In this document: piece by piece, positions 28,569 to 46,873 of the stretch
Position numbering within the stretch: position 1 is the first letter of the stretch
How the letters are laid out: the number at the start of each line of letters is the position of its first letter
NCBI RefSeq assembly: GCF_023715505.1
Contig: NZ_JAMBOH010000016.1
Coordinates: 65,602-129,601, forward strand
Length of the DNA: 64,000 nt
From: Neobacillus cucumis
GTDB lineage: Bacteria; Bacillota; Bacilli; Bacillales_B; DSM-18226
Reading direction: 5' to 3'
Notes under the pieces: model-generated
What the model saw: the letters and a program-made list of their open reading frames with translations, nothing else
Database searches by the model: none
What the model was told of the DNA's origin: nothing
Program-made: the position numbers and the translations under genes

Positions 28569-29744
28569 TTATAATCTCTCCCAAATAGAAGCGATTCCTT
28601 GTCCTCCACCAATACAAACTGCAGATGCCCCGTATTTTCCACCGCGTCTCTGTAATTCATAGACAAGTGAAAGGGTAATCCTTGTACCACTCGCTGCAAG
28701 TGGATGCCCAAGAGCAATGGCACCGCCATTCACATTTCCGATCTCCGGATCAAAACCTAACTCTTTTTGGCAGGCTAGATACTGCGCGGAGAAGGCTTCA
28801 TTAATTTCAATCAAATCCAAATCTTCCAGTTTTAAACCTGCTTTTTGGAGAGCCGTTTGAATGGCGGGAACCGGTCCAATCCCCATATATTTTGGATCCA
28901 CCCCTACTACACCCCACGATACGAGTCTTGCGATAGGCTTCAACCCTTTTTCAGCGGCAAATTCACTGGAAGTCACAATAACAGCTGCTGCTCCATCAAC
29001 CATCCCGCTTGCGTTTCCAGGGGTTACAACCCCATTCTCGATAAAACGAGGTTTTAGTTTTGCCAGCTTCTCCATACTTGTTTTACGCACATGTTCATCT
29101 TGGTCAACGACTCTACTCCCTTTTCTTTCCTTTACGGTAACGGGAACTATTTCTTCATTCAGATACCCTTTTTCAATCGCTGCAAGTGCCCGTTCATGAC
29201 TTGAAAGAGCATGCCGATCAACTTCTTCACGAGAAATGTTATATTTTTTGGCCAGATTTTCCGCCGTGTCAGACATAGTAACGTCACCAACCGTATCGTA
29301 TAAACCATCCCAGACCCAGTCTTCAATTACAGGACCGCCTAGTCCGCTTCCCCATCTCATTCCTGGGATTACATGGGGGACGTTACTCATGCTTTCTGTC
29401 CCTCCGGCCAGAACAGCGTTTGCTTCACCTGTTAGAATGTAACGAGCCGCAGTTAAAATGGCTTCTACTCCACTGCCGCACAAACGATTAATCGTTAACG
29501 CTGGAACGTGAATAGGCAATCCCGCCTTTAAGCCAACATGACGAGCCAGAAGATGGGCATCCTTACTTGATTGCTGAACATTTGCAAACACAACTTGATC
29601 GATCTCTTCCGGATTAATCTTTGCTTTCTGGACTGCACCACGGGCTGCTTCTACACCTAAATCGGTCGCCGAGATTCCTCTAAACGTTCCGGAAATTTCT
29701 GTAAAGGCTGTCCGTGCCCCTTCAACGATAACAATATGACTCAT
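28569..29744 (-). CDS. Thiolase (acetyl-CoA C-acyltransferase / acetyltransferase)
   Basis: A 391-aa thiolase. The nucleophilic Cys lies in LTINRLCGSGVEAILTAA (near residue 88). The second active-site region has NEAFSAQYLACQKELG, GGAIALGHPLAASGTR (catalytic His) and the second Cys in ASAVCIGGGQG. It cleaves 3-ketoacyl-CoA in beta-oxidation or forms acetoacetyl-CoA. The ATG at 29744 lies 9 nt after GGAGGAG; a TTG at 29753 abuts that site and is rejected. It is separated from the rest of the catabolic island by a GC-rich repeat, so it may be transcribed alone. A near-cre palindrome (AAAGCGCTTT) overlaps its leader. Confidence 0.9.
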   Translation of the reverse strand: MSHIVIVEGARTAFTEISGTFRGISATDLGVEAARGAVQKAKINPEEIDQVVFANVQQSSKDAHLLARHVGLKAGLPIHVPALTINRLCGSGVEAILTAARYILTGEANAVLAGGTESMSNVPHVIPGMRWGSGLGGPVIEDWVWDGLYDTVGDVTMSDTAENLAKKYNISREEVDRHALSSHERALAAIEKGYLNEEIVPVTVKERKGSRVVDQDEHVRKTSMEKLAKLKPRFIENGVVTPGNASGMVDGAAAVIVTSSEFAAEKGLKPIARLVSWGVVGVDPKYMGIGPVPAIQTALQKAGLKLEDLDLIEINEAFSAQYLACQKELGFDPEIGNVNGGAIALGHPLAASGTRITLSLVYELQRRGGKYGASAVCIGGGQGIASIWERL

Positions 29745-29763
29745 GTAATCCAACTCCTCCTCA

Positions 29764-29780
29764 AAAGCGCTTTCATATTT
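29764..29780. promoter_or_regulatory. Weak cre-like palindrome in the thiolase leader
   Basis: On the minus strand ATGAAAGCGCTTTTGAG contains the palindrome AAAGCGCTTT and matches the cre consensus except at the conserved C near its 3' end. It lies just upstream of the ribosome site of the thiolase gene. Fatty-acid or branched-chain catabolic thiolases are often under CcpA control, but the match is imperfect. Confidence 0.35.
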
Positions 29781-29913
29781 TATTAAGTACTATTCTTTTT
29801 ATCAATGATTCTATCTTTATTGTAAATACTTACCTTTCATATTGTTATCCTCAGTTCAAACGAAAAAGGGTATCTTTCTTCCTACATTTTGCTGGTTTTG
29901 CTTATAAAAAAAT

Positions 29914-30095
29914 GGCTGTGTTAAACTTGAGAGTTGATTTCCGCTCCAGGCGCTTCGCTTTCCGCGGGCGGTCCGGGGAGCCTCCTCGGCGCTATGCGCC
30001 TGTGGGGTCTCCCCAGCCCCGTACTCCCGCAGGAGTCTACGCGCCTTCCGCTCCAATCAACATGCCAAAAATCAACAATAGCCTTTAACACAGCC
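29914..30095. repeat. GC-rich palindromic element with 12-bp terminal inverted repeats
   Basis: A 182-bp block, visibly far more GC-rich than its surroundings, is bounded by perfect 12-bp inverted repeats (GGCTGTGTTAAA at 29914 and TTTAACACAGCC ending at 30095). Inside are a nested pair GTTGATT / AATCAAC, two direct copies of TCCGCTCC and several hairpins (GGCGC-TAT-GCGCC, GGGG-TCT-CCCC). I recognise the core as similar to a dispersed intergenic element found in many Bacillaceae genomes. It encodes no credible protein and looks like a MITE or structured-RNA repeat. It sits between the thiolase and a hypothetical gene. Confidence 0.75.
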
Positions 30096-30104
30096 TAAAA
30101 ATAA

Positions 30105-30136: not shown

Positions 30137-30143
30137 CCTATTT

Positions 30144-30701
30144 TTACAATAGATAGAATGTGTTCCCTTTTGGACCTAAAGGCAGATGTCCTTCCTCTAA
30201 AAGTTCTATTAGAACTGATAGAGCTTCATGATCATCAGCTAATTCAGCAGTACAGGCTAAAATACTTACATACATGGCATGACCAACTAGGAATTTAATC
30301 GTATTCTCATCCTTAAAAGTCATAAAAGCTTGTTTGTATGCACTATGAAAAATTGCTTCAGGCACTCTATCAACAACCTCATTTAGAAGTCTTTCATTCT
30401 CAAGGCTGTCAATTTTCTTTTTCCATTGTTCCGGTAATTCCTTCAGTACCTCCCAAAGAGCGCTGCCTTCAAATGAAAGCGTTTTGATTGTTTCAGGTAC
30501 CTGCTCTATGCAAATCCATTTGATTTCATAATCATGAACCCCAAAAGCACTCATAAACTGTGCTAATTTTCCTTCGATTTTAGGGGAATATTTACCAGCA
30601 TTTGAATACCAGTTGATCGATGTCAATTTTTCAATTAATTCATTGACTGAACGGACTGTAAGGCCATATTTTCCTTCATTGAATAATTGGGCCAAAGCCA
30701 T
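30144..30701 (-). CDS. Hypothetical protein in the aromatic-catabolism cluster
   Basis: A 185-aa soluble, largely helical, acidic protein that I do not recognise. It has no signal peptide or transmembrane helix. Single His residues occur in FGVHDYEIKW, FHSAYKQAF, VGHAMYVS and DDHEAL, and Cys in KWICIEQ and LACTAE. It follows the FAD monooxygenase gene by 40 nt in the same direction, preceded by a ribosome site (AAAGGAGCAAG), and is the last gene of the unit. It could be an accessory protein or an unrecognised isomerase for the gentisate route, which lacks a maleylpyruvate isomerase here. The sequence itself does not show this. Confidence 0.6.
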   Translation of the reverse strand: MALAQLFNEGKYGLTVRSVNELIEKLTSINWYSNAGKYSPKIEGKLAQFMSAFGVHDYEIKWICIEQVPETIKTLSFEGSALWEVLKELPEQWKKKIDSLENERLLNEVVDRVPEAIFHSAYKQAFMTFKDENTIKFLVGHAMYVSILACTAELADDHEALSVLIELLEEGHLPLGPKGNTFYLL

Positions 30702-30741
30702 TTTATCTTGCTCCTTTCAGGCGGTTTCATAGTATATGAGC

Positions 30742-31974
30742 TTAGTATTTCGTAGTTAATTCCGGAGGACCAAATTTTGGACCATACGGACCTTCCTCTA
30801 ACCAACGGCCCAGCCTCGGCACAATTGATACGAGTGAAGCAGCAAGCTCCCGCTTAAGATTCATTTCCGAAGAATTTCCTTGAAGATGGTGTAATGCGGT
30901 TGTTGAACAATCACGATTCCAATTGGCAGCAATGCGTCGTTCTCTTGCCGCTAAATAAATGGCGTCTCCTCGTTCATCTTCTGTTTTGGCTTGAATTGCC
31001 CTCTCAATTCCCGAAACTGCCTTAAGCGCATCTGGAACACCGGAGTTTAGTCCGCGGGCACCAAATGGAGCAAATAAATGAGCCGCTTCCCCAGCAAGAA
31101 GTACTCTCCGCTTAGGATCTGTCAATGAACTGGCCACTACCTGATGGAAACGATAGGTAGAGACCCAGGTAACACGTTCTGCATATTTAGGATCCATCAC
31201 TTTTGGCAGCCATTGTTTCACACCTTCCATGCTAGTAAAATCGTCTGGATTATCTCCCTCTAATAACTGAAGGTCAACACGCCATCCTCCCTTAAATGGA
31301 ACAAACATTACATTTCTTCCACCGGTTGCGGGATGTTGATAATGAAAAGTACGTTCAAGCGGCAGTGGATTCACCTCATCTTCTTTTACGTCCAAAACAA
31401 GGAATGTGTCTTCCGTACGTGGTCCTTCAAATACAAGACCTGCCTGTTCTCTTACAACTGAACGGGCTCCATCACATCCAATAATGTATTGAGCCTCAAA
31501 TGTTTCACCTGAGGCTATTTTCAAAATGGTACCGGTATCGTTGATTTCTAATTCTTTAACCGGAGAATCCCAAATTATTTCTACACCAGCATCCATACAG
31601 GCATTATAGATGTGTTTCTCAATTTCATCCTGATGAAGCGACGTGAAATGCGGCAATTCACTCGAATCATTATTATTGGTGATTCCATAATTACGTACAT
31701 ATACTTCTTTTCCTTTATATAAAGTCCGAACGACTGGCCAGATAATTCCGTTCCGGGCAAGTATGAAGCCAAGACCTTTTGAAGTCTCCTCTAAATGCTT
31801 CAAGGTGGCATTGTGTAAGTAAATGGCTCTGCTTCCTGGACGCGGCCGTCCGAATGGATCGGCTTCGATCACAACGGAAGAAATCCCTTTTTGTTTTAAT
31901 GCAAGACCTGCAACAAGACCAACAGGCCCAGCACCCACAACAATAACGTCATATTTCCTTCTCTTTTCCATCAT
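30742..31974 (-). CDS. FAD-dependent aromatic-ring monooxygenase
   Basis: A 410-aa group A flavoprotein hydroxylase (PheA/TfdB/MhpA clan). The Rossmann motif VIVVGAGPVGLVAGLAL is at residues 9-25, the conserved DG motif in YIIGCDGARSVVREQAG, and the second FAD motif in VLLAGEAAHLFAPFGARGLN near residue 290. MhpA proteins are longer (about 550 aa) and have a C-terminal thioredoxin-like domain, which is missing here. Such enzymes hydroxylate phenolic acids ortho or para to a hydroxyl group. With a gentisate-dioxygenase-like neighbour it may make gentisate from 3-hydroxybenzoate or salicylate (or its CoA ester). Substrate is inferred from context. ATG codons at 31974 and 31971 are both possible. 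Confidence 0.8.
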   Translation of the reverse strand: MMEKRRKYDVIVVGAGPVGLVAGLALKQKGISSVVIEADPFGRPRPGSRAIYLHNATLKHLEETSKGLGFILARNGIIWPVVRTLYKGKEVYVRNYGITNNNDSSELPHFTSLHQDEIEKHIYNACMDAGVEIIWDSPVKELEINDTGTILKIASGETFEAQYIIGCDGARSVVREQAGLVFEGPRTEDTFLVLDVKEDEVNPLPLERTFHYQHPATGGRNVMFVPFKGGWRVDLQLLEGDNPDDFTSMEGVKQWLPKVMDPKYAERVTWVSTYRFHQVVASSLTDPKRRVLLAGEAAHLFAPFGARGLNSGVPDALKAVSGIERAIQAKTEDERGDAIYLAARERRIAANWNRDCSTTALHHLQGNSSEMNLKRELAASLVSIVPRLGRWLEEGPYGPKFGPPELTTKY

Positions 31975-32039: not shown

Positions 32040-32888
32040 TCAGTATTTGTCCGAATATCTAACATCTACGCTAAATTCGCCAATTCTTTCAATTTTAATC
32101 CGTACTGTATCACCCGATTCAATCGGTCCTACTCCTGCAGGGGTTCCTGTTGCGATAATGTCCCCTGGTTGTAATGTCATATCTTGATTGGCTATCTCAA
32201 AACACTTAAAGCAGTCGTAAATCAAATACTTGGTATTCCCGTCCTGACGCAGTTCATCATTGATCCAGAGCTTCATGTCTAAATCATTGGGATTTTCAAT
32301 TTCATCGGAGGTCACAATCCATGGCCCAATCGGTGTAAAAGTATCGAATGATTTACGCCACGTTCTTTCCTCGTTGCCTCTTATAGAGATATCAAGTAAG
32401 GCAAAATAACCGAAAATGTAATCCTTCGCTTCAGATGAGGATCTATTTTTCGCTTTTTTCCCGATAACATAACCTAATTCTGCCTCATGGTCCGTTCTGC
32501 GATCCTTAAAAGGTAAAACGATAGGATCATTGGGACCTGATAGGGAATCTGGTGATTTTAAAAACAAACCAAGTTCTTCTATTGTTCGAGGGGCGTTATT
32601 AAACATCTCATTCATTTCTTTTTGATGGTTTCGATAATTGACGGGTGCTGCCCAAATCTTTCCAGTACCGGGAACTGGTGATTTCAATGTGACGTTTGAG
32701 AGAAGATAGGAAGGGCATGCTTCTATTTCCCTCTCTATCCTCACTTTTATTTCATCAAAGTTATCAATGAGCCGGAGAAAGGATTCACGTGGATTCTCAG
32801 AATTCCAGCCTGCTAAATTGGAAACATCTACGACTGAATCCCCTTTTACTATGCCTAGGGTATCTTCGTTAAAAATGGCGATTTTCAT
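32040..32888 (-). CDS. Fumarylacetoacetate hydrolase family protein (likely fumaryl- or maleylpyruvate hydrolase)
   Basis: A 282-aa FAH-fold hydrolase. The catalytic and metal-binding signatures are visible in the order KIWAAPVNYRNHQKEM (catalytic His), DHEAELGYVIGKKAKN (Glu pair), FGYFALLDISIRGNE (Asp) and GDIIATGTPAGVGPIESGD. These enzymes hydrolyse C-C bonds in acylpyruvates, the final step of the gentisate and homogentisate routes. The stop-start overlap with the double-cupin gene upstream (ATGA, 4 nt) indicates tight coupling, supporting the role of hydrolysing the ring-cleavage product. Confidence 0.85.
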   Translation of the reverse strand: MKIAIFNEDTLGIVKGDSVVDVSNLAGWNSENPRESFLRLIDNFDEIKVRIEREIEACPSYLLSNVTLKSPVPGTGKIWAAPVNYRNHQKEMNEMFNNAPRTIEELGLFLKSPDSLSGPNDPIVLPFKDRRTDHEAELGYVIGKKAKNRSSSEAKDYIFGYFALLDISIRGNEERTWRKSFDTFTPIGPWIVTSDEIENPNDLDMKLWINDELRQDGNTKYLIYDCFKCFEIANQDMTLQPGDIIATGTPAGVGPIESGDTVRIKIERIGEFSVDVRYSDKY

Positions 32889-34015
32889 TTATAGTCCCCC
32901 TGCTCATTGTCTGGGACGAAAACTTTTTCAATGATTTGATGTCCGTCGTTTTCCTTAAATGGCTCACTGTACTCTAATTCCAATTTCTGCATCACGGGTT
33001 TGTCATTAAAAGAAAACAAATAGACATCTTCTTCTCCCGTATTCACATGCTCATGAAAGCTCCATGGCGGAAGGATAAAGAAATCACCTTTCTCCCATTC
33101 AAACTTTTGACCATCTATAATGGTATAGCCGTTCCCTTCAAGAACATGATAGATCGCACTATGTACATGACGGTGAGCCATAGTTTGCATGCCAGGCATA
33201 AGCTTTTGCATCATTGTACCAATTCGAGAATCAGCTGATCCTCCCGTTAGTGGATTCACGTATTCAATGGCATATCCATCGAACGGGTCACTATCGTTTT
33301 CCTTCATCTTATCAAGCAAAAATTTCACTCTTTCAAACTTATATCCATAAATTGGAGATGGGTATCCCGGACATTTCGTCTCGTTTAGCTTTTTAAAAGC
33401 ACCCATGGAAAATTGTTTAGTAGAATAGTTTTCAGGAACTTCCATCGGATAGGACTCCTCTTCATATGGTTCAAAAAAGGAAGCAGCTAATGTCTTTACA
33501 AGACCTACATCTAATCCATCCAACCAAAATACCGGCTCCGTTCCTTCATGTTTGTGCTCATGCCATGTCCACGCAGGGGTCAAGACCATATCCCCGCGTT
33601 CCATATATGTTTTTTCCCCATTTACGGCTGTATAAGCCCCGCTGCCTTCGATAATAAAACGAATCGCAGACTGGGAATGATGGTGTGATGGTGCACTTTC
33701 CCCTGGGAGCAATAACTGAATACCCGCATATAAGGTGTGAGTCCCATATCCGACAAGACCATGCTTTAAAAGGCTGGGATTTTGTAGATACACCACTCTC
33801 CGTTCCGCATCCTTTCCAGGTTTTAAAAGCTCTCCAGCTTTTAAGACATATTCACGGATTACTTTCCACTTCCACAAATAAGGTTCTACATCATGAACCG
33901 GTTCTTTGGTTACCATATGGCCAAGGTCATACCATAGTGGTCCTAAGTGATTTTTCTTCATTCCATCATAGTAAGGTTGTAAACTATCTCTAATCGAGAC
34001 TTCATTTTTTGACAT
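32885..34015 (-). CDS. Gentisate 1,2-dioxygenase-like double-cupin protein
   Basis: A 376-aa bicupin. Each half has a metal-binding cupin motif: SAPSHHHSQSAIRFIIEGSG with LTPAWTWHEHKHEG in the N-terminal half, and MAHRHVHSAIYHVLEGNG with LPPWSFHEHVNTG in the C-terminal half. The layout and length match gentisate 1,2-dioxygenase, an Fe(II) enzyme that opens gentisate to maleylpyruvate. 1-Hydroxy-2-naphthoate dioxygenase is a close relative and cannot be excluded. It overlaps the FAH-family gene by 4 nt and sits 45 nt after the acyl-CoA dehydrogenase gene, in one catabolic unit. Confidence 0.85.
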   Translation of the reverse strand: MSKNEVSIRDSLQPYYDGMKKNHLGPLWYDLGHMVTKEPVHDVEPYLWKWKVIREYVLKAGELLKPGKDAERRVVYLQNPSLLKHGLVGYGTHTLYAGIQLLLPGESAPSHHHSQSAIRFIIEGSGAYTAVNGEKTYMERGDMVLTPAWTWHEHKHEGTEPVFWLDGLDVGLVKTLAASFFEPYEEESYPMEVPENYSTKQFSMGAFKKLNETKCPGYPSPIYGYKFERVKFLLDKMKENDSDPFDGYAIEYVNPLTGGSADSRIGTMMQKLMPGMQTMAHRHVHSAIYHVLEGNGYTIIDGQKFEWEKGDFFILPPWSFHEHVNTGEEDVYLFSFNDKPVMQKLELEYSEPFKENDGHQIIEKVFVPDNEQGDYK

Positions 34016-34060: not shown

Positions 34061-35764
34061 CTAACAATGGTAGCGTTCCTTCTCGATCACATATTCGGCA
34101 ATTCTACGTTTGACGAATATTATATTTTCTGAACTGCTCATGATTAATAGACTAGCAATACGTGAAAAAATACCTGCATCACCAAAATGATTGATCATAT
34201 TTAATGCTGTTAATGCGAGTTTTTGGGATGCCTCATGTGTATAAACCCTCGTACAATCAAGCTTCTGCCGATTTTGTTCTTCACCGGTGTTCAGTATAGA
34301 TTTTTCCGTCCGTAAAACCGCACTTTCAATTCCATAAATACCGATAACCAAATCGGCCATGAAAGCGGCAATTTCTTGTTCTGTATTAAAATCACTAAGG
34401 GAATTCTTTTTAATTGATCCAATTGCTGCATGGAATAATTTTTTCATTAGTTGAAGAACCTGCTTTTCACGTTGAAGCAAACCAATTTTCAATTCTTCCT
34501 CTTCACTTGGTTCGACATCGTTTTTCAACACGGTAGTGGCAATGAGTATCCTATTAATTTCATTCGTCCCCTCAAAGATCCGATTGATTCTAGAATCACG
34601 ATAAAGTGTTTCGATCTCATATTCAGCCATATATCCATAACCACCGTGAATTTGGACCGCTTCATCAACAATTTGATCGAGGAATTCCGTCGACATCACC
34701 TTGTTAATGGAACATTCGACCGCATAACGGGCAATGGTTGCTCCAAAATCATTCCCGCTTTTCTTCATTTCCTCGAAACCCTTCTGCATTAATCCTGCTG
34801 TTCGGTAGACAGCGCTTTCATTAATATGTGTTTTAATGACCATGTCAGCAATTTTGTTTTTAATTATATTAAAATTAGAAAGAGACTGGCCAAATTGCTT
34901 TCGTTCATTGGCATACTTAACCGCAAGTTCAATCGCCCGTTTAGCCGTACCGAGGGATGTCGCTGAAATCTTGTGGCGGCCAATGTTTAACACGTTAAAA
35001 GCAATAATATGTCCCCGGCCCACGTCACCGATTACATTTTCAACTGGAACTAGAACATTTTCCAGGATTAATGAACGAGTCGACGAACCTTTCAACCCCA
35101 TCTTTTTTTCTTCGGAACTGGTGGAAACACCTTGGTAGCCTTTTTCCACAATAAAAGCCGTAAACTTTGTTCCATCTACCTTCGCATACACGATAAATAT
35201 ATCCGCAAATGCTGAATTCGTGATCCACTGCTTTTCTCCATTTATTCGATAATACTTACCGCACTCCGTTAACACCGCAGTCGTTTTTGCACTCAATGCA
35301 TCAGTTCCAGAAGAAGGCTCAGTTAAGGCATAGGCAGCAATTTTTCCCCCGCTTATAATATCAGGCAGGTACTTATTTTTCTGACTAGGACTCCCAAAAT
35401 AGGCAATTGGTAATGCCCCAATACCTGTTTGTCCGCCAAATGTTATTGAAAAAGAACGACCAACTGCCATATTTTCAGCAATAATAGTAGCACTTACCTT
35501 TCCTAACTCCAGTCCGCCATCATCAACTGAGATATCTGCTCCAATAAGACCAAGTTCACCGGCTTCTCTAATAAGAGTAATTGTTTCGGCAAATTCTTGT
35601 TTTTCAATCTTCTCTAGTTTTGGATAGACTTCATTCATTACAAATTTACTTGTCATCTCTGCAATCATTTTATGCTCATCCTCAAAATCCTCAGGGGTGA
35701 AGGTGTCAGCTTGTGAGATTTCACTATATAAGAAATGATGATTTGCCTTTTTTTCAATAAGCAT
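34061..35764 (-). CDS. Acyl-CoA dehydrogenase (long form, FadE-like)
   Basis: A 567-aa FAD enzyme, longer than the usual 380 aa. The dehydrogenase core is residues 30-420 with YALTEPSSGTDALSAKT (FAD and substrate contacts), the family motif QWITNSAFADIFIVYA, NERKQFGQSL and the C-terminal signature IHGGYGYMAEYEIETLYRDS. That motif is followed by the region of the catalytic Glu (FEGTNEINR). An extra C-terminal helical domain of about 150 residues is typical of the FadE/YusJ type. It introduces the 2,3 double bond in an acyl-CoA. It is two nt from the thioesterase gene, in a run with the ligase, hydratase and dehydrogenase genes. Confidence 0.9.
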   Translation of the reverse strand: MLIEKKANHHFLYSEISQADTFTPEDFEDEHKMIAEMTSKFVMNEVYPKLEKIEKQEFAETITLIREAGELGLIGADISVDDGGLELGKVSATIIAENMAVGRSFSITFGGQTGIGALPIAYFGSPSQKNKYLPDIISGGKIAAYALTEPSSGTDALSAKTTAVLTECGKYYRINGEKQWITNSAFADIFIVYAKVDGTKFTAFIVEKGYQGVSTSSEEKKMGLKGSSTRSLILENVLVPVENVIGDVGRGHIIAFNVLNIGRHKISATSLGTAKRAIELAVKYANERKQFGQSLSNFNIIKNKIADMVIKTHINESAVYRTAGLMQKGFEEMKKSGNDFGATIARYAVECSINKVMSTEFLDQIVDEAVQIHGGYGYMAEYEIETLYRDSRINRIFEGTNEINRILIATTVLKNDVEPSEEEELKIGLLQREKQVLQLMKKLFHAAIGSIKKNSLSDFNTEQEIAAFMADLVIGIYGIESAVLRTEKSILNTGEEQNRQKLDCTRVYTHEASQKLALTALNMINHFGDAGIFSRIASLLIMSSSENIIFVKRRIAEYVIEKERYHC

Positions 35765-35766
35765 GG

Positions 35767-36186
35767 TTACCCCTCTACGGTTCCGACTTTGGACACCATC
35801 TTTTCACGAATAAAATCCGGGATTGGATGAGCTTTAGGTTTTCCTTCAAAAGAAGTCCAAGCACGCACTTCATATCCTTCTGCCATGATTTGGTCTTCTT
35901 TTATAAATACATGCTTAATTTTAAAGACTTTATTACGAAGTTCTTCAACAAAGCTTTGTACGATAACTTGGTCTTCAAATAAGAGCGGTCTCTTGAAAAC
36001 ACAGTTTGCTTCCAATAATGGTACACCGATCTGATGCTCCGCAAAGAGCTTAGAAGATGGATAGCCGATTTGGGCTAAAAAATCATGTGTTGCATCATCC
36101 ATCCATTTATAGAAGTTGGGATAAAATACAATTCCGGCCGCGTCCGTATCTCCCCAGCGTACTTGGAACGGATATTCTGTTTTCAT
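35767..36186 (-). CDS. Acyl-CoA thioesterase of the 4-hydroxybenzoyl-CoA thioesterase family
   Basis: A 139-aa hot-dog-fold thioesterase. The motif WGDTDAAGIVFYPNFYKWMD near residue 10 carries the catalytic Asp of the 4-hydroxybenzoyl-CoA thioesterase/YbgC group (GDxDxxGIVxYPN). The central GVPLLEANCVFKRPLLFED region also resembles the characterised aroyl-CoA thioesterase. It would hydrolyse an aroyl-CoA or short acyl-CoA to free acid. Placed between the acyl-CoA dehydrogenase and the CoA ligase, it could release the ring acid before hydroxylation and ring cleavage. Confidence 0.85.
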   Translation of the reverse strand: MKTEYPFQVRWGDTDAAGIVFYPNFYKWMDDATHDFLAQIGYPSSKLFAEHQIGVPLLEANCVFKRPLLFEDQVIVQSFVEELRNKVFKIKHVFIKEDQIMAEGYEVRAWTSFEGKPKAHPIPDFIREKMVSKVGTVEG

Positions 36187-37764: not shown

Positions 37765-37806
37765 CCAATACATCACTCCATTAACGAACACTTTTACCAC
37801 CACTGA

Positions 37807-37844
37807 AAGATGAAGTATCGATTTAAAACTTGATACTTCATCTT
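37807..37844. other. Perfect intercistronic hairpin between enoyl-CoA hydratase and CoA ligase genes
   Basis: A 13-bp perfect stem (AAGATGAAGTATC / GATACTTCATCTT) with a 12-nt loop. No T-run follows on either strand, so an mRNA processing or stability role is more likely than termination. It lies 14 nt downstream of the enoyl-CoA hydratase stop codon in the transcript. Confidence 0.5.
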
Positions 37845-37857
37845 GATTCACGAACCT

Positions 37858-38637: not shown

Positions 38638-38655
38638 TAGTATTCCCTCCATTCA

Positions 38656-39510
38656 TTATTCGTAATCGTAAAATCCTGCACCTGTTTTCTTTCCTAATCT
38701 CCCTGCTCTAACAAGTTGTTTTAGTAGAAGAGGTGGTGCAAACTGGTTGTTATTAAATTCTTCTTTAAAGTACTCCATTACATGGTAGCCAATTTCAACA
38801 CCGGCAAAGTCCTGCAATTCAAACGGTCCCATCGGATAATTCAAGCCTAGTTTAACTGCCTTATCAATATCTTCATACGATGCAACGCCTTCTTCTACTA
38901 GTTTAATAGCTTCGATAAACTGTGGCAGCATGATCCGATTGACAATAAAACCTGGTGAATCCTTTTTCACTTCTACTGGTTCTTTAGTCAACCTCTTAGA
39001 CAACGCTTTCAATTCTTGAACGGTTTCGTCACTCGTTTTATAACCACGAACTACTTCTACTAGCTTCATTAACTGAGCTGGATTAAAGAAATGCATGCCC
39101 GCTACAAGCTCTGGTCGGTTTGTGGCCGCAGCAATTTCTGTAATCGACATTGAAGATGTATTGGTAGCCAAGATAACTCCTTCACGGACAATTTGATCAA
39201 GTGCAGAAAATACTTCCTTTTTTAAATTAAGGTCTTCTAGGACTGCTTCAATAACAACATCAGCATCTTTTAAATCTTCTAATCTAGTAGTTGTTTGAAT
39301 ACGGCCAAGTGCCTCTTGTTTTTGCTCTTCTGTCATTTTTCCTCTGGCTACACTTTTATCCATAAATTTACTCATGCGCTGTAAGGAGCCTACTAAGAAA
39401 CGCTCTTCAACATCACGTAAAATAACATTAAATCCATTTATAGCAGCAAGGTTAGCGATGCCAGTTCCCATTGATCCTGCTCCTACCACTCCAATTGTTT
39501 GAATGGCCAT
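38656..39510 (-). CDS. 3-Hydroxyacyl-CoA (3-hydroxybutyryl-CoA) dehydrogenase
   Basis: A 284-aa NAD-dependent enzyme. The N-terminal Rossmann motif is IGVVGAGSMGTGIANLAA, followed by ADVVIEAVLEDLNLKKEVF, the catalytic His in ELVAGMHFFNPAQLMKLVEV, and the C-terminal signature DSPGFIVNRIMLPQF. It oxidises 3-hydroxyacyl-CoA to 3-ketoacyl-CoA. The start at ATG 39510 follows AAAGGAGATGG; a start at 39537 lacks a site. It is the first gene of the catabolic unit downstream of the PucR-type regulator gene. Confidence 0.9.
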   Translation of the reverse strand: MAIQTIGVVGAGSMGTGIANLAAINGFNVILRDVEERFLVGSLQRMSKFMDKSVARGKMTEEQKQEALGRIQTTTRLEDLKDADVVIEAVLEDLNLKKEVFSALDQIVREGVILATNTSSMSITEIAAATNRPELVAGMHFFNPAQLMKLVEVVRGYKTSDETVQELKALSKRLTKEPVEVKKDSPGFIVNRIMLPQFIEAIKLVEEGVASYEDIDKAVKLGLNYPMGPFELQDFAGVEIGYHVMEYFKEEFNNNQFAPPLLLKQLVRAGRLGKKTGAGFYDYE

Positions 39511-39761
39511 ATTTCCATCTCCTTTTATCTTAATCATTTTCTGTAAATTAATTATAGCTAATTATTGTCTAGCAATTGTACCTACACCATGTAGGAAAAA
39601 CCTTTATCTTTTTAATCAAAATTACGGTTAGTCAATCTCATAAGATAAAGAACAGTGTGCTCAACGAAAGATCGGCTCAACTATTATTGATTTCTTGAAT
39701 TACATTTAATAGAAACAGGTAAATAAATAATTTGAATTTCCAGTGACTTAACCCGAATAAT
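39511..39761. other. Intergenic region upstream of the beta-oxidation/aromatic unit
   Basis: About 250 bp of AT-rich sequence, before the regulator's terminator, that should contain the promoter and the PucR-type regulator's site for the catabolic unit. I see no clean palindrome or riboswitch. Nothing else can be supported. Confidence 0.4.
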
Positions 39762-39822: not shown

Positions 39823-42054
39823 TTACATTAATAGTGCAGCCTTTTCTATTTTCCCCCCGTACATATCATATAGTTTTAGAGCCATCATTAAATTGAATCT
39901 CACTTCTGCATCACTTAATTGAACATCTAAAAGGGATTCAATTCTTTCAAGACGATAGAGTAACGAACTACGGTGGATAAAAAGGTCCTCTGCTGTATTC
40001 TTTACATTTCCGTTATTTTGCAGAAATGTATGAAGCGTGTTGCATAAATCAGTATTCTTCCCTTCTGAATAAGAAAGTAACGGCCCCAACTGTTTCATTA
40101 CAAATAGGTCTACTGCCTTTGAATAATTTAAATGGTGTAGAATGGCATATGATCCGAGCTCGTCAAACAGTGAAAATCCTAAATGCTGTAAACGGCTGTT
40201 GACTATATTTAATGCCTGTATACCTTGCTGATAACTCAAATAATAATCAGAAAGGTTTGAAGTTTTTCCCCCAATCCCCATCCCAATTTTACAGCTAATA
40301 GATGTTTCGTTGGCCCATTTTTTCAATTGATCGTAAAGGTCAAACCAAAACTTTTTCGAGATAGTAGTTTCATCTTTAATGGGAACGATTAAAATATTTT
40401 TCTCATCATGGTAGGCACATAAACTCTTTGGGTCTTTCTTTAAAAGATTTGATTTAATATTATCCCAGATAAGATTCTTTTTTGCATTTTGCTCCAAAAG
40501 ATTGCTCCCCTTCAGTTCTCTATCTTCTAATGAAATTGACATCACAGCAATCTGATGACTTTGAAAAGGGTCCCACTGAAAAAGATTGGCATACTGGAGA
40601 ATAGCCTCTTTATCATCAATTCTCTCTACCAACAATTTAGCGATAAAGCTATCCTTCGCTTGTTCTTTTGCATCTAGAACCAGCTTTTGTTTAATAAATT
40701 GGATTGAACAAATATTTCTAGCAAGTTCAATGGTTAGGTGGTCGATTTCATCGATATATCCACTTGGTCTTCGTAAAGCTAAAAACCCGAGCAGACTTCC
40801 ACCTCCATTGATCATCCAAAAGGAGTATAAATCGGACGTTTCGTTAGGAACTAGTATCGAAAAATAATCGTCCCCTTTTGAATAACTCTTTTCTCTAATA
40901 GCAATTTCAAGAAACGCCTCAGGCAACTGTGTCCTATCTTCAGAATCATACATATCAACTGATATCGGCTGCATAAAACGATCAAATAAAATGACTGGGC
41001 TTTGAAAAAGGCTTGAAAGTTTATAGGTTATACCATCAAAATTCTCTACATCGACTGTTTCTTTTACTAGGGCTTGTTGATAATCTAATAGGTACTGAAG
41101 GCGGTTTTTCTGCTCTTTCTCATTGTTAAATAAACGAGCATTCTCGATAATAGCAGCAACGTGGTTGGATAATAACTCAAGCATCCGTTGATCATTTTCT
41201 GTAAAAACGACCTCCTTTTGGTTTTCAATGTGCAGGACACCAATTGTCTTTAAGTCAATGGTCAATGGGACCGTCAATTGCGAACCTCCTGGCTTCTCTA
41301 AAAACGGAAAATATTTATTTAACAAATAATTCTCTTCAATCATAATTTTATTAGGACCGATAAACTCACCGTAGGAAGGCGGCTGGTAAACAAAACAGTT
41401 TTTCTTTTCATCAAATAAATAAATGCAAGCAAAATCGGCATTGGTTCCTTTACCTGCCCTTAAGGTCAACTCAGCAATTTGCTGCTCGATTGGTGCATTG
41501 AGGGATAAATTCTTGCTGAGCCATTCGATACCCTCCATTTTGTTCAATTGTGATTTTTTCTCACGGGCCATCGCCATTGCAACAGCAATATCTTTACCGA
41601 ATTCCTCAAAGTGGGTCTCCATATCAAGAAGTGGTACATAGTTTAAAAAACCAACAATACAGAAACCCAAATTGAAATCGTTATCATTTAATGGAACGGT
41701 GAACCAAGTTTTAACCTTAGCCTCTTTAAGTATATTTGACATTTGACATGCTTCAGGAGAATCAGCTCTTTCGTAGGTTAAACTCTGTTGGAGAAGTTTT
41801 GGGGAACAAGTATGTATTTCTATTGGGAAAGCTTCAGTCACTGCAGATTGATTGCCACTCCAAGCTTTTATGACATAGTGGCTTCCCTCATTTTGAATGA
41901 CACCTACAAAATCACAATATAATTCAGAACGGAATGCAGCTGTTAAATATTGAAGAACCTCTTCTTCGGTATCAAACTTAATAAGTTGTCTAGCTGTTGA
42001 ACGTAAATGATTCTCCAATTTTTTCATTAATCGATCTTTGTTCATGTAAGGCAT
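39823..42054 (-). CDS. PucR-type transcriptional regulator with GAF domains
   Basis: A 743-aa cytoplasmic regulator. The first 310 residues hold two GAF-like sensor domains (the second near KGTNADFACIYLFDEKKN and HVAAIIENARLFNNEKEQ). A coiled linker and a central PucR/CdaR-like region follow. The C-terminal HTH (FLQNNGNVKNTAEDLFIHRS, then SLLYRLERIESLLDV) is the PucR family signature. It is encoded between the Liv-type importer and the catabolic genes, all in one direction, and is the obvious candidate activator for them, probably sensing an aromatic acid or its CoA ester. It has its own terminator. Confidence 0.85.
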   Translation of the reverse strand: MPYMNKDRLMKKLENHLRSTARQLIKFDTEEEVLQYLTAAFRSELYCDFVGVIQNEGSHYVIKAWSGNQSAVTEAFPIEIHTCSPKLLQQSLTYERADSPEACQMSNILKEAKVKTWFTVPLNDNDFNLGFCIVGFLNYVPLLDMETHFEEFGKDIAVAMAMAREKKSQLNKMEGIEWLSKNLSLNAPIEQQIAELTLRAGKGTNADFACIYLFDEKKNCFVYQPPSYGEFIGPNKIMIEENYLLNKYFPFLEKPGGSQLTVPLTIDLKTIGVLHIENQKEVVFTENDQRMLELLSNHVAAIIENARLFNNEKEQKNRLQYLLDYQQALVKETVDVENFDGITYKLSSLFQSPVILFDRFMQPISVDMYDSEDRTQLPEAFLEIAIREKSYSKGDDYFSILVPNETSDLYSFWMINGGGSLLGFLALRRPSGYIDEIDHLTIELARNICSIQFIKQKLVLDAKEQAKDSFIAKLLVERIDDKEAILQYANLFQWDPFQSHQIAVMSISLEDRELKGSNLLEQNAKKNLIWDNIKSNLLKKDPKSLCAYHDEKNILIVPIKDETTISKKFWFDLYDQLKKWANETSISCKIGMGIGGKTSNLSDYYLSYQQGIQALNIVNSRLQHLGFSLFDELGSYAILHHLNYSKAVDLFVMKQLGPLLSYSEGKNTDLCNTLHTFLQNNGNVKNTAEDLFIHRSSLLYRLERIESLLDVQLSDAEVRFNLMMALKLYDMYGGKIEKAALLM

Positions 42055-42151: not shown

Positions 42152-42181
42152 AAATCCCAAAGAGATTACTCCTCGGGATTT
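42152..42181 (-). terminator. Terminator downstream of livF
   Basis: AAATCCC / GGGATTT stem with additional inner pairing. The minus strand continues into TTAATTTTTT. It closes the Liv-type transporter operon. Confidence 0.75.
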
Positions 42182-42186: not shown

Positions 42187-42915
42187 TCAGGCACTATTCG
42201 TTTTGATCCCAAGATATGCAGACATCACCTGGGGATTAGAACTAATTTCCTCTCGTGAACCAGAAAGAATGATTCTCCCTTGGTCTAACACATAGGCTCT
42301 GTCAGTCACTTGTAATGCTGCTTTTACATTTTGTTCTACTAAAATAACCATTGTTCCTAGCTCGTTTTTAATGATCATTAAAGTCTCTAGAATTTCATTT
42401 ACTATTTTGGGTGCAAGACCCATAGATGGTTCATCTAGTAAAATAATTTTTGGGTTAGACATCAATCCTCTTCCAATGGCCAGCATTTGCTGCTCGCCGC
42501 CACTTAAATTACCGCCAAGATTATGCATATGCTTTTTTAGGCCCGGAAACATATCGAGAATTTTGGTTATATTCTCATTCGCATGTTTTTTCTCTTTATA
42601 ATATTTAGAGAACATACCTAGCATTAAATTTTCTTTAACGGAAAGACTAGAAAAAATTTGCCTCCCCTCAGGAACAAGACTTAGACCTTTTGCTACCACT
42701 TTAAAGGCAGGTAAACCGCTAATCACTTCATTTTCGAGTGTCACCGTACCAGCGGTAGGACGATAAAGACCGGCCAACGTATTTAAGAGCGTACTTTTCC
42801 CAGCTCCATTGGCACCAATAATCGAAACAATCTCTCCCTTGTTAACCTTAATATCGATATCATCAAGAATTTGGATTCTACCAATATGGGTGCAAAGCCC
42901 TTTGACCTTTAGCAT
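42187..42915 (-). CDS. livF: ABC transporter ATP-binding protein, LivF type
   Basis: A 242-aa ATPase of the branched-chain amino acid/aromatic-acid importer family. Walker A is IGANGAGKSTLLNTLAG, the signature NLSGGEQQMLAIGRGL and Walker B IILLDEPSMGLAP. The switch His occurs after the D-loop as VEQ, the LivF-type variation (MVILVEQNV). It is last in the order binding protein, livH, livM, livG, livF; its start touches the livG stop. Confidence 0.93.
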   Translation of the reverse strand: MLKVKGLCTHIGRIQILDDIDIKVNKGEIVSIIGANGAGKSTLLNTLAGLYRPTAGTVTLENEVISGLPAFKVVAKGLSLVPEGRQIFSSLSVKENLMLGMFSKYYKEKKHANENITKILDMFPGLKKHMHNLGGNLSGGEQQMLAIGRGLMSNPKIILLDEPSMGLAPKIVNEILETLMIIKNELGTMVILVEQNVKAALQVTDRAYVLDQGRIILSGSREEISSNPQVMSAYLGIKTNSA

Positions 42916-43682
42916 TAAACAACCTCCTCACCTAAATAAGCAGCAATTACTTTCTCATTTTGCTGAATTTCTTCCGGCGTTCCTTCCGCAATTTTTTTCC
43001 CAAAGTCCAGAACAACAATCCGGTCCGCCAACTCCATTACGGTAGCCATTTTATGTTCAACAAACAAGAAGGAGTGCCCCTTCATTTTTAAGTCTTGGAT
43101 ATATCCTGCCATACGATTGGTTTCGGAATCATTTAAGCCAGCCATCGGTTCGTCTAACATAATTAAATTAGGATCATAGACAATCGCTCTGGCAAATTCC
43201 AACTGTTTTTGCAGTCCATAAGATAATTGCCCGGCCTTTTCATACATTAAATCTTCTAACTCTACTAATTTAATTACCTCTAAGGCTAATTCGTATGCAA
43301 TTTTTTCATCTTTTATAATACGAGGCATACGGAAAGCTGCATTTAGAACATTGGTCTTTAATTTAACGTGCGCCCCCATCATGACGTTTTCGAGAACTGT
43401 CATATTATCAAATATCTGCAGATTCTGGAATGTTCGTGACATACCTAATTGGGCTAACTGCGGAATCTTCTTACCTGTTAACTTGTTACCTTTAAAAAAT
43501 ACCTCTCCAGTAGTCGGTGGTAGAAAACAGGAAATCATATTAAATAGTGTTGTTTTACCCGCTCCGTTTGGTCCGATTACCGCTACAATTTCTCCTTCTC
43601 CAACCTCAAAACTGACATCTGAAACGGCTGTAACACCACCAAATTGTTTGGTTAAACCCTGTACCACTAATAAATTTTCCAT
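42915..43682 (-). CDS. livG: ABC transporter ATP-binding protein, LivG type
   Basis: A 255-aa ATPase. Walker A is IGPNGAGKTTLFNMIS, followed by the Q-loop in GMSRTFQNLQIF, the signature QLSYGLQKQLEFARAIV (a degenerate LSGGQ as in other LivG proteins), Walker B LIMLDEPMAGLND and the switch His in FVEHKM. The C-terminal tail IQQNEKVIAAYLGEE is typical of LivG. It is adjacent to livM by one nt and coupled to livF. Confidence 0.93.
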   Translation of the reverse strand: MENLLVVQGLTKQFGGVTAVSDVSFEVGEGEIVAVIGPNGAGKTTLFNMISCFLPPTTGEVFFKGNKLTGKKIPQLAQLGMSRTFQNLQIFDNMTVLENVMMGAHVKLKTNVLNAAFRMPRIIKDEKIAYELALEVIKLVELEDLMYEKAGQLSYGLQKQLEFARAIVYDPNLIMLDEPMAGLNDSETNRMAGYIQDLKMKGHSFLFVEHKMATVMELADRIVVLDFGKKIAEGTPEEIQQNEKVIAAYLGEEVV

Positions 43683-43683: not shown

Positions 43684-44721
43684 TCATACTCCTTTTTCAG
43701 TAATCATCTCTTTGTGATCCTTTGCAGCTAAATGCTTTTTACTTTCAAATCTTTTAAAGAACTGCGAGAAAACTGGCATTAGTCCTTTTGGTACATACAT
43801 CATAATTAAGATAATAATTAAACCGTAAACAACAATCTCTACTTCACCGCTAATCCCAAAATAAGTATGACCAACAAAGCGGATCATTTCATTTAAGAAC
43901 ATAATAATCGTAGTCCCCAAGATAGCTCCCCAAATAGAGCTCGCTCCTCCAACCATTACCATGATTAAAAACAAAATAGATTTGGTGATATAAAATGTAG
44001 GCGGAGCAACAAAGGTAATATAATGGGCATAAATACTACCGGCCAGTGAAGCGAAGGCTGCACTTAACGCAAAAATAGCTACTTTGTATTTAGAAACTTG
44101 AACTCCGAGTGTCTCAGTTGCAATTTCACTATCATGAATACTCCTTAAAACTCTGCCAACATGCGAACGAACAATATTTAATGATAATAATAGAATGACG
44201 AAGGCGGCTGCCCAAACAAAGTAGTAGAAATAGACTTTGTCTATTAGAGGAATGCCAAATACCGATAGAGTTGGAATGCCAACTAAACCGGCTGCTCCAC
44301 CTGTCCAGTGATCCAGACCCAAAATCAAAATATAGAATATAATATTAATGCCAAGAGTGGCGAGGGCAAGAAAATGTCCTTTCAGCTTTAAAATAGGAAT
44401 GCCAATAACGTAAGCAATCAAAAAGGTGGCCCCCATCCCAATGACAATAGCAAGCCAAGGGGAAATTTGATAATGAGTAGTGAGCACTCCTGAAGTATAG
44501 GCGCCAATCCCGAAGAAGGCCGCATGGCCAAGGGAAATTTGTCCTGCATAACCAATCAATAGACATAAGCCAAAAGAAACGATCGAATAAATGCCTATTA
44601 ATATTAAAATTGTAAATATATAAGGTGAGTTCACCATTAATGGCAAAACCAACACTAGCGTAATCATGAAAATCAACGGTTTCAAACGACTGCCATACAA
44701 AACGTTTTCCAATTTCGACAT
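43684..44721 (-). CDS. livM: ABC transporter permease, LivM type
   Basis: A 345-aa membrane permease with about nine helices. The conserved GYAGQISLGHAAFFGIGAYT is near residue 53, and the cytoplasmic loop has SEIATETLGVQVSKYKVAIF, both typical of LivM. It pairs with LivH to make the channel. The ligand is unknown; Liv-type systems next to aromatic catabolic genes often import aromatic acids, so that is the inference here. Confidence 0.92.
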   Translation of the reverse strand: MSKLENVLYGSRLKPLIFMITLVLVLPLMVNSPYIFTILILIGIYSIVSFGLCLLIGYAGQISLGHAAFFGIGAYTSGVLTTHYQISPWLAIVIGMGATFLIAYVIGIPILKLKGHFLALATLGINIIFYILILGLDHWTGGAAGLVGIPTLSVFGIPLIDKVYFYYFVWAAAFVILLLSLNIVRSHVGRVLRSIHDSEIATETLGVQVSKYKVAIFALSAAFASLAGSIYAHYITFVAPPTFYITKSILFLIMVMVGGASSIWGAILGTTIIMFLNEMIRFVGHTYFGISGEVEIVVYGLIIILIMMYVPKGLMPVFSQFFKRFESKKHLAAKDHKEMITEKGV

Positions 44722-44736
44722 CTATATACCTCCCTA

Positions 44737-45609
44737 CTAAACTCTTTCACCAGAAGCTCTAGCAAAAATCCCATTCGGTTTTAAAAATAAAACGAGGATT
44801 AAAACGGTAAACGTAATCGCATCGCTATAAAAGGTGGATACAAATGCACCTGAAAAAGTTTCTAATAATCCAACGATTAATGCTCCCGCTACAGCACCTG
44901 GAATACTATGCATTCCACCGATTACCATCCCGACAAATCCTTTTACTCCTATAAGAAAGCCCATTTCATAAGTGGCATCGGTAATAGGGGCAATCATAAT
45001 CCCGGCAATCGCCCCTAAGGCTGCAGCCAAGGTAAAGGCAAGGGCAGACATCGTACTCGTATTAATTCCCATGAGTTTTGCAGCACGAGGATTCTTTTCA
45101 CTCGCTCGTAAGGCGGATCCGATATAAGTCTTTTCAAAAAATACATATAAAGCCGCTAATAGAATAAACAAAACAATAAAGATGAAAATACTTTGAGGAT
45201 TAATGACAGCGCCCATAAATTGAATGGGCTTTGCCTGAATAATCGGAGCGAGCTGTTTAGGATTAGAGCCCCAAACGATTAGACCCAATCCTTTTAAAAA
45301 TGTAGATAATCCAATCGTAATAATAATTAAAATGATGACGGACTTATTTCGCGCATGAAGAATCGCCGTTCTTTCGACAATAAACCCGATTACAGCCGTT
45401 ATAAGAATGGCTAATAATATGGAAGCAAACATAGGTAAACCTGTATTAACCAACGTAATACAAGTCAACGCCCCGATCATGGCAAATTCACCTTGAGCAA
45501 AATTTAAGATTCCAGTAATGTTATAGATAGTCACAAATCCAATTGCCAGCAGTGCATAAATACTTCCAACGGTTAAACCCGTTACAAGATATTGCATGAG
45601 TAAATCCAT
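44737..45609 (-). CDS. livH: ABC transporter permease, LivH type
   Basis: A 290-aa permease with about eight helices. LivH signatures are GSIYALLAIGFVTIYNITGI followed by LNFAQGEFAMIGAL near the N-terminus, and SEKNPRAAKLMGINTSTM in the cytoplasmic loop. It follows the binding-protein gene after a 103-nt gap with a strong hairpin, so binding-protein mRNA is probably more abundant. Confidence 0.93.
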   Translation of the reverse strand: MDLLMQYLVTGLTVGSIYALLAIGFVTIYNITGILNFAQGEFAMIGALTCITLVNTGLPMFASILLAILITAVIGFIVERTAILHARNKSVIILIIITIGLSTFLKGLGLIVWGSNPKQLAPIIQAKPIQFMGAVINPQSIFIFIVLFILLAALYVFFEKTYIGSALRASEKNPRAAKLMGINTSTMSALAFTLAAALGAIAGIMIAPITDATYEMGFLIGVKGFVGMVIGGMHSIPGAVAGALIVGLLETFSGAFVSTFYSDAITFTVLILVLFLKPNGIFARASGERV

Positions 45610-45631
45610 CGCCGAACTCCTTCCATAATAT

Positions 45632-45661
45632 CAATGGCAGAAACCTAAGATTCTGCCATTG
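45632..45661 (-). other. Intercistronic hairpin 3' of the Liv-type binding-protein gene
   Basis: An 11-bp perfect stem CAATGGCAGAA / TTCTGCCATTG with an 8-nt loop. No T-run follows on the minus strand. Its position after a binding-protein gene and before its permeases is a typical place for an mRNA-stabilising or partial termination element. Confidence 0.5.
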
Positions 45662-45712
45662 ATTTTTTACTATTCGTAAGATAATCATTTTTGTCGTAAA
45701 TTTATCATGTCC

Positions 45713-46873
45713 TTACTCTTCAAACTTCCATTGATTGTTCTCAATCCCGAGAACTGCAAAACCATCTTCATACGGACCTATATAATCAGACTGTAATTCA
45801 AATGTACCGGTTAAACCTTCATATTTTCCTGCTTTCTTTTTCAAGTAAGTTTGGATATCCTTAGAAGTGATATTTCCGGCTTTAATTGCCTCAAAAATTA
45901 AATTGAATCCGTCGGCAGCATGGGCAGTAAAGTTATCAGGGTCACTCATGAACATAGCTCGATAGTCTTCACGGAATTTCTTTAAACGCTCTTTCTGCTC
46001 TCCAGCTGTTAATTGGTCGACAACACTTAATTTGCTTCCAATAACATAAAGATTTTCATTGTTATCTTTTACTTGATTTAAGAAGCCTTGATTTGCAGAA
46101 GCAGACGATTGAATCATTGGAATATCAAAACCTAATGATTTAAAGTTGCGGGCAACAATTCCAGCACCAGGTGTTCTTGACCAAACTATCACTGCCTGTG
46201 GATTTTTCTTCCGAATATTGGTTAATTGAACAGTCATATCTGTAGCAGTAGCATCGAATTCTTCATGTGCCACGATGTCAATGTTGTTTTCTTTTGCTAC
46301 CTTTTCGAAAGACGGAAGGCCATCCACACCAAATCCATCGCGGGCATTAATCCATGCTACTTTCGATATGTTATGTTTCTTTAAAAATTTTAAAATTAGA
46401 TTCGCATTGGTTAAGTTGCTAGGAGCCATTTGGAAGATCCCCTTAGCATCAGGCTTTACTGGTGCCACCGTCATTAATGGTATTCCTGCAGCCGTAATCT
46501 TAGGTAAGATCGCCATGGATGTACTAGCTTGAGTTGCCCCCACTACAGCGACAACCCCGTCTGAAATCAGCTTATCAGCTGCGACCACGGCTTTCGTATC
46601 GTCTGTTTCATAATCTTGCATGACAATTTCGATCTTCTTTCCTTTAATTTTGCCTTGATCATCTAATTGTTTCTGAAGCAGTTTTACTAGATTTACTTGT
46701 GTTTTTCCTAAAGTGGATGCCGGGCCAGTTTCAGCAAAAATAGCACCTATTTTAATGACATTCCCATTGCTTGCCCCGTTTCCTCCTGTACTTTCTGCAT
46801 TACAGGCTGATAATACAAATAATAGAACTACAATTAAGGCCATTGCACTATACTTCTTTAGAAACTTATTCAT
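45713..46873 (-). CDS. livJ: Liv-type ABC transporter substrate-binding lipoprotein
   Basis: A 386-aa periplasmic-binding-fold lipoprotein. The signal peptide ends in the lipobox VLSACNAES (Cys near residue 24). The mature part begins IKIGAIFAETGPASTLGKTQ, with later VAVVGATQASTSMAILPKIT and FTAHAADGFNLIFEAIK, all typical of family 5/6 receptors for branched-chain amino acids and aromatic acids. It is the first gene of the liv operon. A candidate cre box lies 109-123 nt upstream. Confidence 0.9.
   Translation of the reverse strand: MNKFLKKYSAMALIVVLLFVLSACNAESTGGNGASNGNVIKIGAIFAETGPASTLGKTQVNLVKLLQKQLDDQGKIKGKKIEIVMQDYETDDTKAVVAADKLISDGVVAVVGATQASTSMAILPKITAAGIPLMTVAPVKPDAKGIFQMAPSNLTNANLILKFLKKHNISKVAWINARDGFGVDGLPSFEKVAKENNIDIVAHEEFDATATDMTVQLTNIRKKNPQAVIVWSRTPGAGIVARNFKSLGFDIPMIQSSASANQGFLNQVKDNNENLYVIGSKLSVVDQLTAGEQKERLKKFREDYRAMFMSDPDNFTAHAADGFNLIFEAIKAGNITSKDIQTYLKKKAGKYEGLTGTFELQSDYIGPYEDGFAVLGIENNQWKFEE

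Follow-up and report, generated by a model that had tools for sequence, protein, structure and literature searches.

A Neobacillus cucumis gene cluster that may lead hydroxylated phenylpropanoids to gentisate by ring hydroxylation of a CoA ester

Organization of the cluster

The stretch of Neobacillus cucumis DNA analyzed here (64,000 nucleotides, hereafter the window) carries on its minus strand, between positions 28569 and 46873, a run of genes in which enzymes of CoA-dependent beta-oxidation stand together with a putative gentisate cleavage set. Read from 46873, the order is LivK, LivH, LivM, LivG, LivF, a hairpin, PucR, a 3-hydroxyacyl-CoA dehydrogenase (HAD), an enoyl-CoA hydratase (ECH), an acyl-CoA ligase (LIG), a thioesterase (TE), an acyl-CoA dehydrogenase (ACAD), a gentisate 1,2-dioxygenase-like bicupin (GDO), an FAH-family hydrolase (FAH), a class A FAD monooxygenase (FMO), U185, a thiolase and a second hairpin (Table 1). 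The ligase, hydratase, hydroxyacyl-CoA dehydrogenase and thiolase of CoA-dependent phenylpropanoid beta-oxidation are thus all found in one gene run. Every gene named in a previous reading of this DNA (the original prediction) is present within these limits and on this strand; the start and end that it gave for the region are right, and its family assignments are correct, including the PucR regulator and the Liv importer placed upstream on the same strand; it had passed over U185, a conserved gene encoding a 185 amino acid protein. The importer unit would stop at the hairpin that follows LivF; terminator-like sites in the region are not above chance, the consensus scan finding 12 against 13.4 in shuffles.

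Table 1. Features of the cluster, with the evidence for each assignment.
Feature	Position	Strand	Evidence
LivK-type substrate-binding lipoprotein, ABC importer	45713..46873	-	Pfam Peripla_BP_6; nearest solved proteins: Liv-type binding proteins (E 4.4e-21 at best)
LivH-type permease	44737..45609	-	BPD_transp_2; score on the LivH model under its cut-off
LivM-type permease	43684..44721	-	BPD_transp_2; score on the LivM model under its cut-off
LivG-type ATPase	42915..43682	-	Family models
LivF-type ATPase	42187..42915	-	Family models
Terminator-like hairpin, 13 pairs, 3' of LivF	42152..42181	-	Consensus scan
PucR-type regulator with GAF domain	39823..42054	-	HTH_30, GGDEF_2, GAF_2
3-hydroxyacyl-CoA dehydrogenase (HAD)	38656..39537	-	3HCDH_N and 3HCDH
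Enoyl-CoA hydratase (ECH)	37858..38652	-	ECH_1
AMP-forming acyl-CoA ligase (LIG)	36202..37851	-	AMP-binding
4HBT-type thioesterase (TE)	35767..36186	-	4HBT_2; nearest solved 5wh9, E 1.1e-41
Acyl-CoA dehydrogenase, FadE-like (ACAD)	34061..35764	-	NF058590, 719 bits against a cut-off of 600
Gentisate 1,2-dioxygenase-like bicupin (GDO)	32885..34015	-	3bu7 and 2d40, E about 1e-82
FAH-family hydrolase (FAH)	32040..32888	-	Nearest is maleylpyruvate hydrolase 6jvv, E 5.3e-74
Class A FAD monooxygenase (FMO), proposed aroyl-CoA hydroxylase	30742..31974	-	FAD_binding_3; family context
U185, 185 amino acids, proposed FMO partner	30144..30701	-	No NCBIfam or Pfam match; co-occurrence with FMO
Thiolase	28569..29753	-	Thiolase_N and Thiolase_C
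Terminator-like hairpin 3' of thiolase	28527..28554	-	Consensus scan

The substrate could not be resolved from LIG or LivK by way of their solved relatives, those of LIG including malonyl-CoA synthetase, FadD13 and 4-coumarate-CoA ligase, and the beta-oxidation enzyme families are too general to indicate hydroxycinnamoyl-CoA as substrate.

Conservation in related genomes

Relatives were collected by a scan with the FMO alignment, taking one genome per species, and the best 80 of 146 were retained; FMO identity is at least 53% in 60 of these and at least 59% in 42 loci. Neighbours were screened by tblastn within 10 kb of FMO using the proteins of the window and seven reference proteins. Database proteins match the window FMO at up to 94% identity, and its counterparts in Neobacillus drentensis and 'Bacillus renqingensis' match it at 84-88%, in keeping with DNA of Bacillaceae type. 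N. drentensis (locus L002) holds the run from PucR to thiolase in the order of the window, while the thiolase follows ECH in Peribacillus butanolivorans, Bacillus sp. ISL-34 and Metabacillus niabensis (L003, L004 and L006); variants of the cluster are present in Peribacillus, Metabacillus and Lysinibacillus. The togetherness of the cluster genes across species exceeds chance.

HAD and ECH accompany FMO in 22 of the 60 loci with at least 53% identity, and since ACAD is present in only 10 of these 22, it would seem to be an optional extra that serves saturated side chains. LivK (at least 50% identity) was detected in four of the 60 (L013, L020, L025 and L027), every one with HAD and ECH, and PucR (at least 35%) in 15, 14 of them with HAD and ECH. 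In Heyndrickxia coagulans 36D1 (L063:10001-11168) the match to FMO in a single reading frame covers just residues 3-254, with U185 following; this FMO may be broken or misread.

The original prediction had described the region as a composite island. In the 4-kb bins that overlap the cluster, the G+C content (0.364-0.413) is ordinary for the window (0.357-0.434), and many Bacillaceae loci of other species hold variants of the cluster; an island of foreign DNA is therefore not supported, and we rejected it.

Putative CoA-ester feeders of the monooxygenase

Besides the 22 loci with HAD and ECH, 20 of the 60 loci have a PaaK-like short ligase near FMO and eight have another AMP ligase of aryl type (the second type), some loci carrying more than one of these feeders. 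TE (at least 36% identity) is found in 39 of the 60, and 36 hold one or other of two gentisate modules. Of the 42 loci with FMO at least 59% identical, 35 carry a ligase of one of the three CoA-ligase classes and 30 carry a thioesterase (at least 45%).

A tree of the 80 FMOs was built from stretches longer than 330 residues, excluding L055 and L063, and its rows were labelled by feeder, 39 of the 80 staying unlabelled; loci with several feeders received one label (beta-oxidation for L018, L044, L047 and L048, second-type ligase for L015 and L037, PaaK for L014, L019 and L031). The labels change 13 times over the 41 labelled rows, the minimum possible being 2, and Brevibacillus fluminis carries two sister FMOs (L030 and L032) with different feeders. 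None of 410 alignment columns separates the 22 beta-oxidation-fed from the 19 ligase-fed FMOs: even in the columns that come closest to doing so, the two groups share at least 28% of residues, and 99 of the 410 are invariant. Since feeders swap frequently on the tree and no column tells the two kinds of FMO apart, both kinds of feeder probably deliver the same aroyl-CoA. An adjoining ligase would be pointless if FMO used free acids, which favours action on the CoA thioester; judged from sequence and gene context, this would be the simplest reading.

More distant relatives were also considered, three of the 30 plasmid records with an FMO relative being inspected. On a haloarchaeal plasmid, a relative with 48% identity has nearby a cupin, a thioesterase, a member of the acetate-CoA ligase family, a CoA-binding protein, an IclR and an FAH, these neighbours lying on the other strand and without annotated beta-oxidation genes. 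On a Streptomyces plasmid (L083:3506-12513) an FMO relative of about 46% identity is surrounded by genes for AMP-binding proteins, by pabB and by a class IV aminotransferase gene, and desaturases and an acyl carrier protein are encoded farther away; this is possibly a natural-product cluster using 4-aminobenzoate. The structure model of the window FMO (mean pLDDT 75) matches class A hydroxylases in general and does not illuminate CoA binding.

The probable gentisate outlet

GDO aligns near full length to its two solved relatives, and the HxH and WH-H segments of the first cupin, whose histidines we take to be functionally important, are kept. FAH matches maleylpyruvate hydrolase 6jvv over residues 1-277, the next family being 1gtt with E 6.9e-46. 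A second gentisate module, with its own GDO and FAH, occurs near FMO in other genomes. The one FAH of this second kind that was tested, from L001, has other FAH proteins as nearest relatives and matches maleylpyruvate hydrolase with E 2.8e-39. A DinB/S-transferase-like protein, the sole kind of isomerase searched for in the relatives, lies alongside the second GDO and FAH in L001 (14219-14731) and in 21 other loci; as a candidate isomerase it is present in all 22 loci with the second module and in none of the 14 with the window-type GDO and FAH alone.

In the window-type outlet maleylpyruvate would thus be hydrolysed directly, whereas the second would isomerize it with the help of a thiol and then hydrolyse fumarylpyruvate. 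That a GDO-like bicupin is found in both modules supports the view that FMO and TE together yield gentisate. The DinB-type protein may be a bacillithiol-dependent maleylpyruvate isomerase; if so, it would give a natural substrate to the DinB/S-transferase-like superfamily, for which such substrates were being sought according to an excerpt of PMC5815605.

The U185 protein

U185 has no NCBIfam or Pfam family match and no significant Foldseek match. Its model (pLDDT 90.7) weakly resembles the fold of RhsI2 immunity proteins (8cm0 and 9t38), a weak match at 11% identity; a shared fold would not show function, and no toxin family was matched among the 20 open reading frames scanned between 28569 and 51754. 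Among 299 genomes of one order, U185 and FMO were found in the same eight, FMO being counted at E <= 1e-80 with six candidates scored per genome; four of the eight were reached via FMO loci (L003, L015, L018 and L063), the other four being independent of these. Genomes with more distant FMOs lack U185.

In an alignment of 26 diverse members one glycine is invariant, W30, W82, P89, P113, A124, P173 and G175 are kept in at least 24, and the best-kept polar residues (E114, H118, Y143, E168 and H171) in 22. A role as pathway enzyme is not favoured, the single invariant residue being a glycine, but with polar residues kept in 22 of 26 members U185 might be catalytic all the same. A bolder combined proposal, which we put forward tentatively and consider doubtful as a whole, is that U185 represents an undescribed protein family on which the aroyl-CoA hydroxylases of Bacillota depend as a non-catalytic partner, the fold of an immunity protein having been adapted as a flavoenzyme subunit or gate that is required only in the lineage whose hydroxylase is at least about 59% identical to FMO, and that aroyl-CoA is channelled from beta-oxidation into carboxyl-shifting hydroxylation with benzoic acid never freed.

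Proposed pathway and alternatives

With moderate confidence we regard the region as serving the breakdown of a phenylpropanoid that bears one hydroxyl group, p-coumarate and/or 4-hydroxyphenylpropionate being the likeliest, and whose ring is hydroxylated as CoA ester on the way to gentisate. Each step is suggested by protein family and gene context. The substrate would be imported by the Liv-type importer and activated to its CoA ester by LIG; saturated side chains would be desaturated by ACAD, and hydration by ECH, oxidation by HAD and thiolysis by the thiolase would yield acetyl-CoA and 4-hydroxybenzoyl-CoA. FMO would then hydroxylate the ring as the CoA thioester; in the 4-hydroxy isomer it would attack C1 and the thioester carbonyl would migrate. 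From the resulting gentisyl-CoA TE would free gentisate. GDO would open the ring to maleylpyruvate, and FAH would cleave this directly to pyruvate and maleate, so that no isomerase would be needed. PucR would regulate the whole set, and U185 would be a non-catalytic partner of the hydroxylase. The pairing of side-chain shortening with a gentisate outlet, as originally predicted, is supported by these data, its main order (release by TE, then hydroxylation of the free acid) being less likely. The feeders favour what had been given as the alternative, hydroxylation of a CoA ester followed by TE, although for the ester itself 4-hydroxybenzoyl-CoA appears to fit as well as or better than the salicylyl-CoA named there.

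The cluster has one hydroxylase and a dihydroxylated product, so the entering acid should bear one hydroxyl group. Gentisyl-CoA can arise from 2-, 3- or 4-hydroxybenzoyl-CoA by hydroxylation para to the existing hydroxyl, the 4-hydroxy case being the one with C1 attack and carbonyl migration. We favour the 4-hydroxy isomer because of the abundance of p-coumarate, the name of the nearest relative of TE, the para-substituted context of the Streptomyces plasmid and a report on Bacillus and Haloarcula, and we place more trust in the CoA-ester order than in the isomer. p-Coumarate is the commonest such plant acid, o-coumarate being much rarer. The nearest solved relative of TE was named '4-hydroxybenzoyl-CoA thioesterase' by its depositors. 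In an excerpt of PMC3572157, degradation of 4-hydroxybenzoate via gentisate is reported in Bacillus and Haloarcula.

Several observations weigh against the proposed route. The 4-, 3- and 2-hydroxy isomers all reach gentisyl-CoA, and the cluster alone does not discriminate among them. GDO scores 337.9 bits on TIGR02272, below the equivalog cut-off of 442.1, and for this reason is named 'GDO-like'. The module counts depend on identity thresholds set after inspection of the data; seven of the 42 closest loci lack a ligase of the three classes and 12 lack a TE of at least 45% identity, several of them ending at contig edges. The feeder labels are partly clustered on the tree (shuffled labels change 16.2 times on average, with 13 or fewer changes in 9 of 200 shuffles), and another haloarchaeal FMO relative is without any of the neighbours described above. 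FMO was likened to PhgB, of the 4-hydroxybenzoate route compared below, by route description alone, with no experimentally proven member of the FMO family in the comparison. For phgABC in Pseudomonas chlororaphis, an excerpt of PMC7862547 states that no gentisate was seen.

Among the alternatives, conversion of o-coumarate or melilotate to salicylyl-CoA, with FMO hydroxylating C5 in the manner of salicylyl-CoA 5-hydroxylase and TE freeing gentisate, would give the identical product from an identical gene set, needs no carboxyl shift and follows a route known in Streptomyces; we consider it unlikely, the rarity of o-coumarate, the name given to the relative of TE and the 4-aminobenzoate synthesis genes around the Streptomyces FMO relative, which point to a para-substituted ring, each speaking weakly against it. 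Quite unlikely, in our view, is the order that had been predicted first, in which beta-oxidation leads to 3-hydroxybenzoyl-CoA, TE frees 3-hydroxybenzoate and FMO acts on the free acid as 3-hydroxybenzoate 6-hydroxylase: TE could precede FMO, and such hydroxylases feeding gentisate are described in an excerpt of PMC3572157, but this leaves unexplained the FMO relatives that adjoin aryl-type CoA ligases and a thioesterase without beta-oxidation genes.

Conversion of unsubstituted cinnamate or 3-phenylpropionate to benzoyl-CoA, then hydroxylated towards gentisate, is improbable: it would require two ring hydroxylations against the one hydroxylase in the cluster, and class A flavin hydroxylases act on rings that already bear OH or NH2, even though Haloferax sp. 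D1227 offers a precedent. Very improbable is that the beta-oxidation and gentisate genes serve separate substrates and are neighbours only through shared use on plant matter; their parts are indeed rearranged or apart in other genomes, but in the window both sets are interleaved in one gene run, and HAD and ECH co-locate with FMO in more than a third of the 60 loci.

If the p-coumarate route through a hydroxylated CoA ester is correct, bacilli would join hydroxycinnamate beta-oxidation to CoA-thioester hydroxylation, a single activation step serving both side chain and ring, and the unusual carboxyl-shift chemistry would extend from 4-hydroxybenzoate to plant cell-wall phenolics. Proteins labelled 'FAD-dependent monooxygenase' or 'hypothetical' would gain candidate substrates, and hydroxylases a new partner protein. 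No beta-oxidation-fed route of this kind in bacilli was found in the literature covered, which comprised titles and the beginnings of abstracts, most subscription journals lying outside it.

Other features of the window

Adjoining the Liv genes, positions 47269-51754 encode a two-component system resembling DcuS/DcuR, together with the TctA and TctB components of a tripartite tricarboxylate transporter. The gap between U185 and the thiolase contains a GC-rich intergenic sequence (29933-30055), perhaps a dispersed repeat; its 21-base end has seven exact matches in the N. drentensis genome that holds L002, and no match in three other genomes or in any of the 83 loci. Two guanidine-I riboswitches lie close to open reading frames on the plus strand at 55079-55181 and 56703-56808, the second overlapping a mechanically called open reading frame.

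Comparison with known systems

The closest described route is PhgABC, by which 4-hydroxybenzoate is converted to gentisate through its CoA ester, hydroxylation with an NIH shift and thioester hydrolysis (Zhao et al. 2018, as cited in an excerpt of PMC7862547). The cluster, known from its genes alone, would share with it the CoA ester, hydroxylase, thioesterase and gentisate, and related Bacillota loci with ligase, FMO, TE and gentisate genes resemble it further. PhgABC reportedly comes from Brevibacillus laterosporus. By family and gene order the thioesterase stands together with the hydroxylase and the gentisate genes, as in PhgABC; in contrast, the aroyl-CoA of the cluster would come from side-chain beta-oxidation and not from a benzoate-type ligase, and U185 is an extra gene. 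The only ligase of the window belongs to the class that travels with beta-oxidation genes, and since no 4-hydroxybenzoate-CoA ligase lies beside the hydroxylase, we class the cluster as a variant working like PhgABC and not as a member of that system.

The Phd system of Corynebacterium and the Cou system of Rhodococcus carry out CoA-dependent beta-oxidation of hydroxycinnamates with the same ligase, hydratase, dehydrogenase and thiolase; they end in free 4-hydroxybenzoate and protocatechuate, whereas the outlet of the cluster would be gentisate. SdgABCD of Streptomyces, the salicylyl-CoA 5-hydroxylase route, likewise hydroxylates an aroyl-CoA to gentisyl-CoA, but starts from salicylate without beta-oxidation (compared by description, not by sequence). 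In Haloferax sp. D1227, according to an excerpt of PMC4005966, gentisate lies on the route by which 3-phenylpropionate and cinnamate are broken down, and the passage from phenylpropanoid to gentisate is shared; compared by description and not by genes, this system differs in being archaeal and in the unsubstituted ring of its substrates. Set beside these systems, the proposed pathway is a new combination of known modules, and among the parts of the cluster U185 least resembles what has been described.

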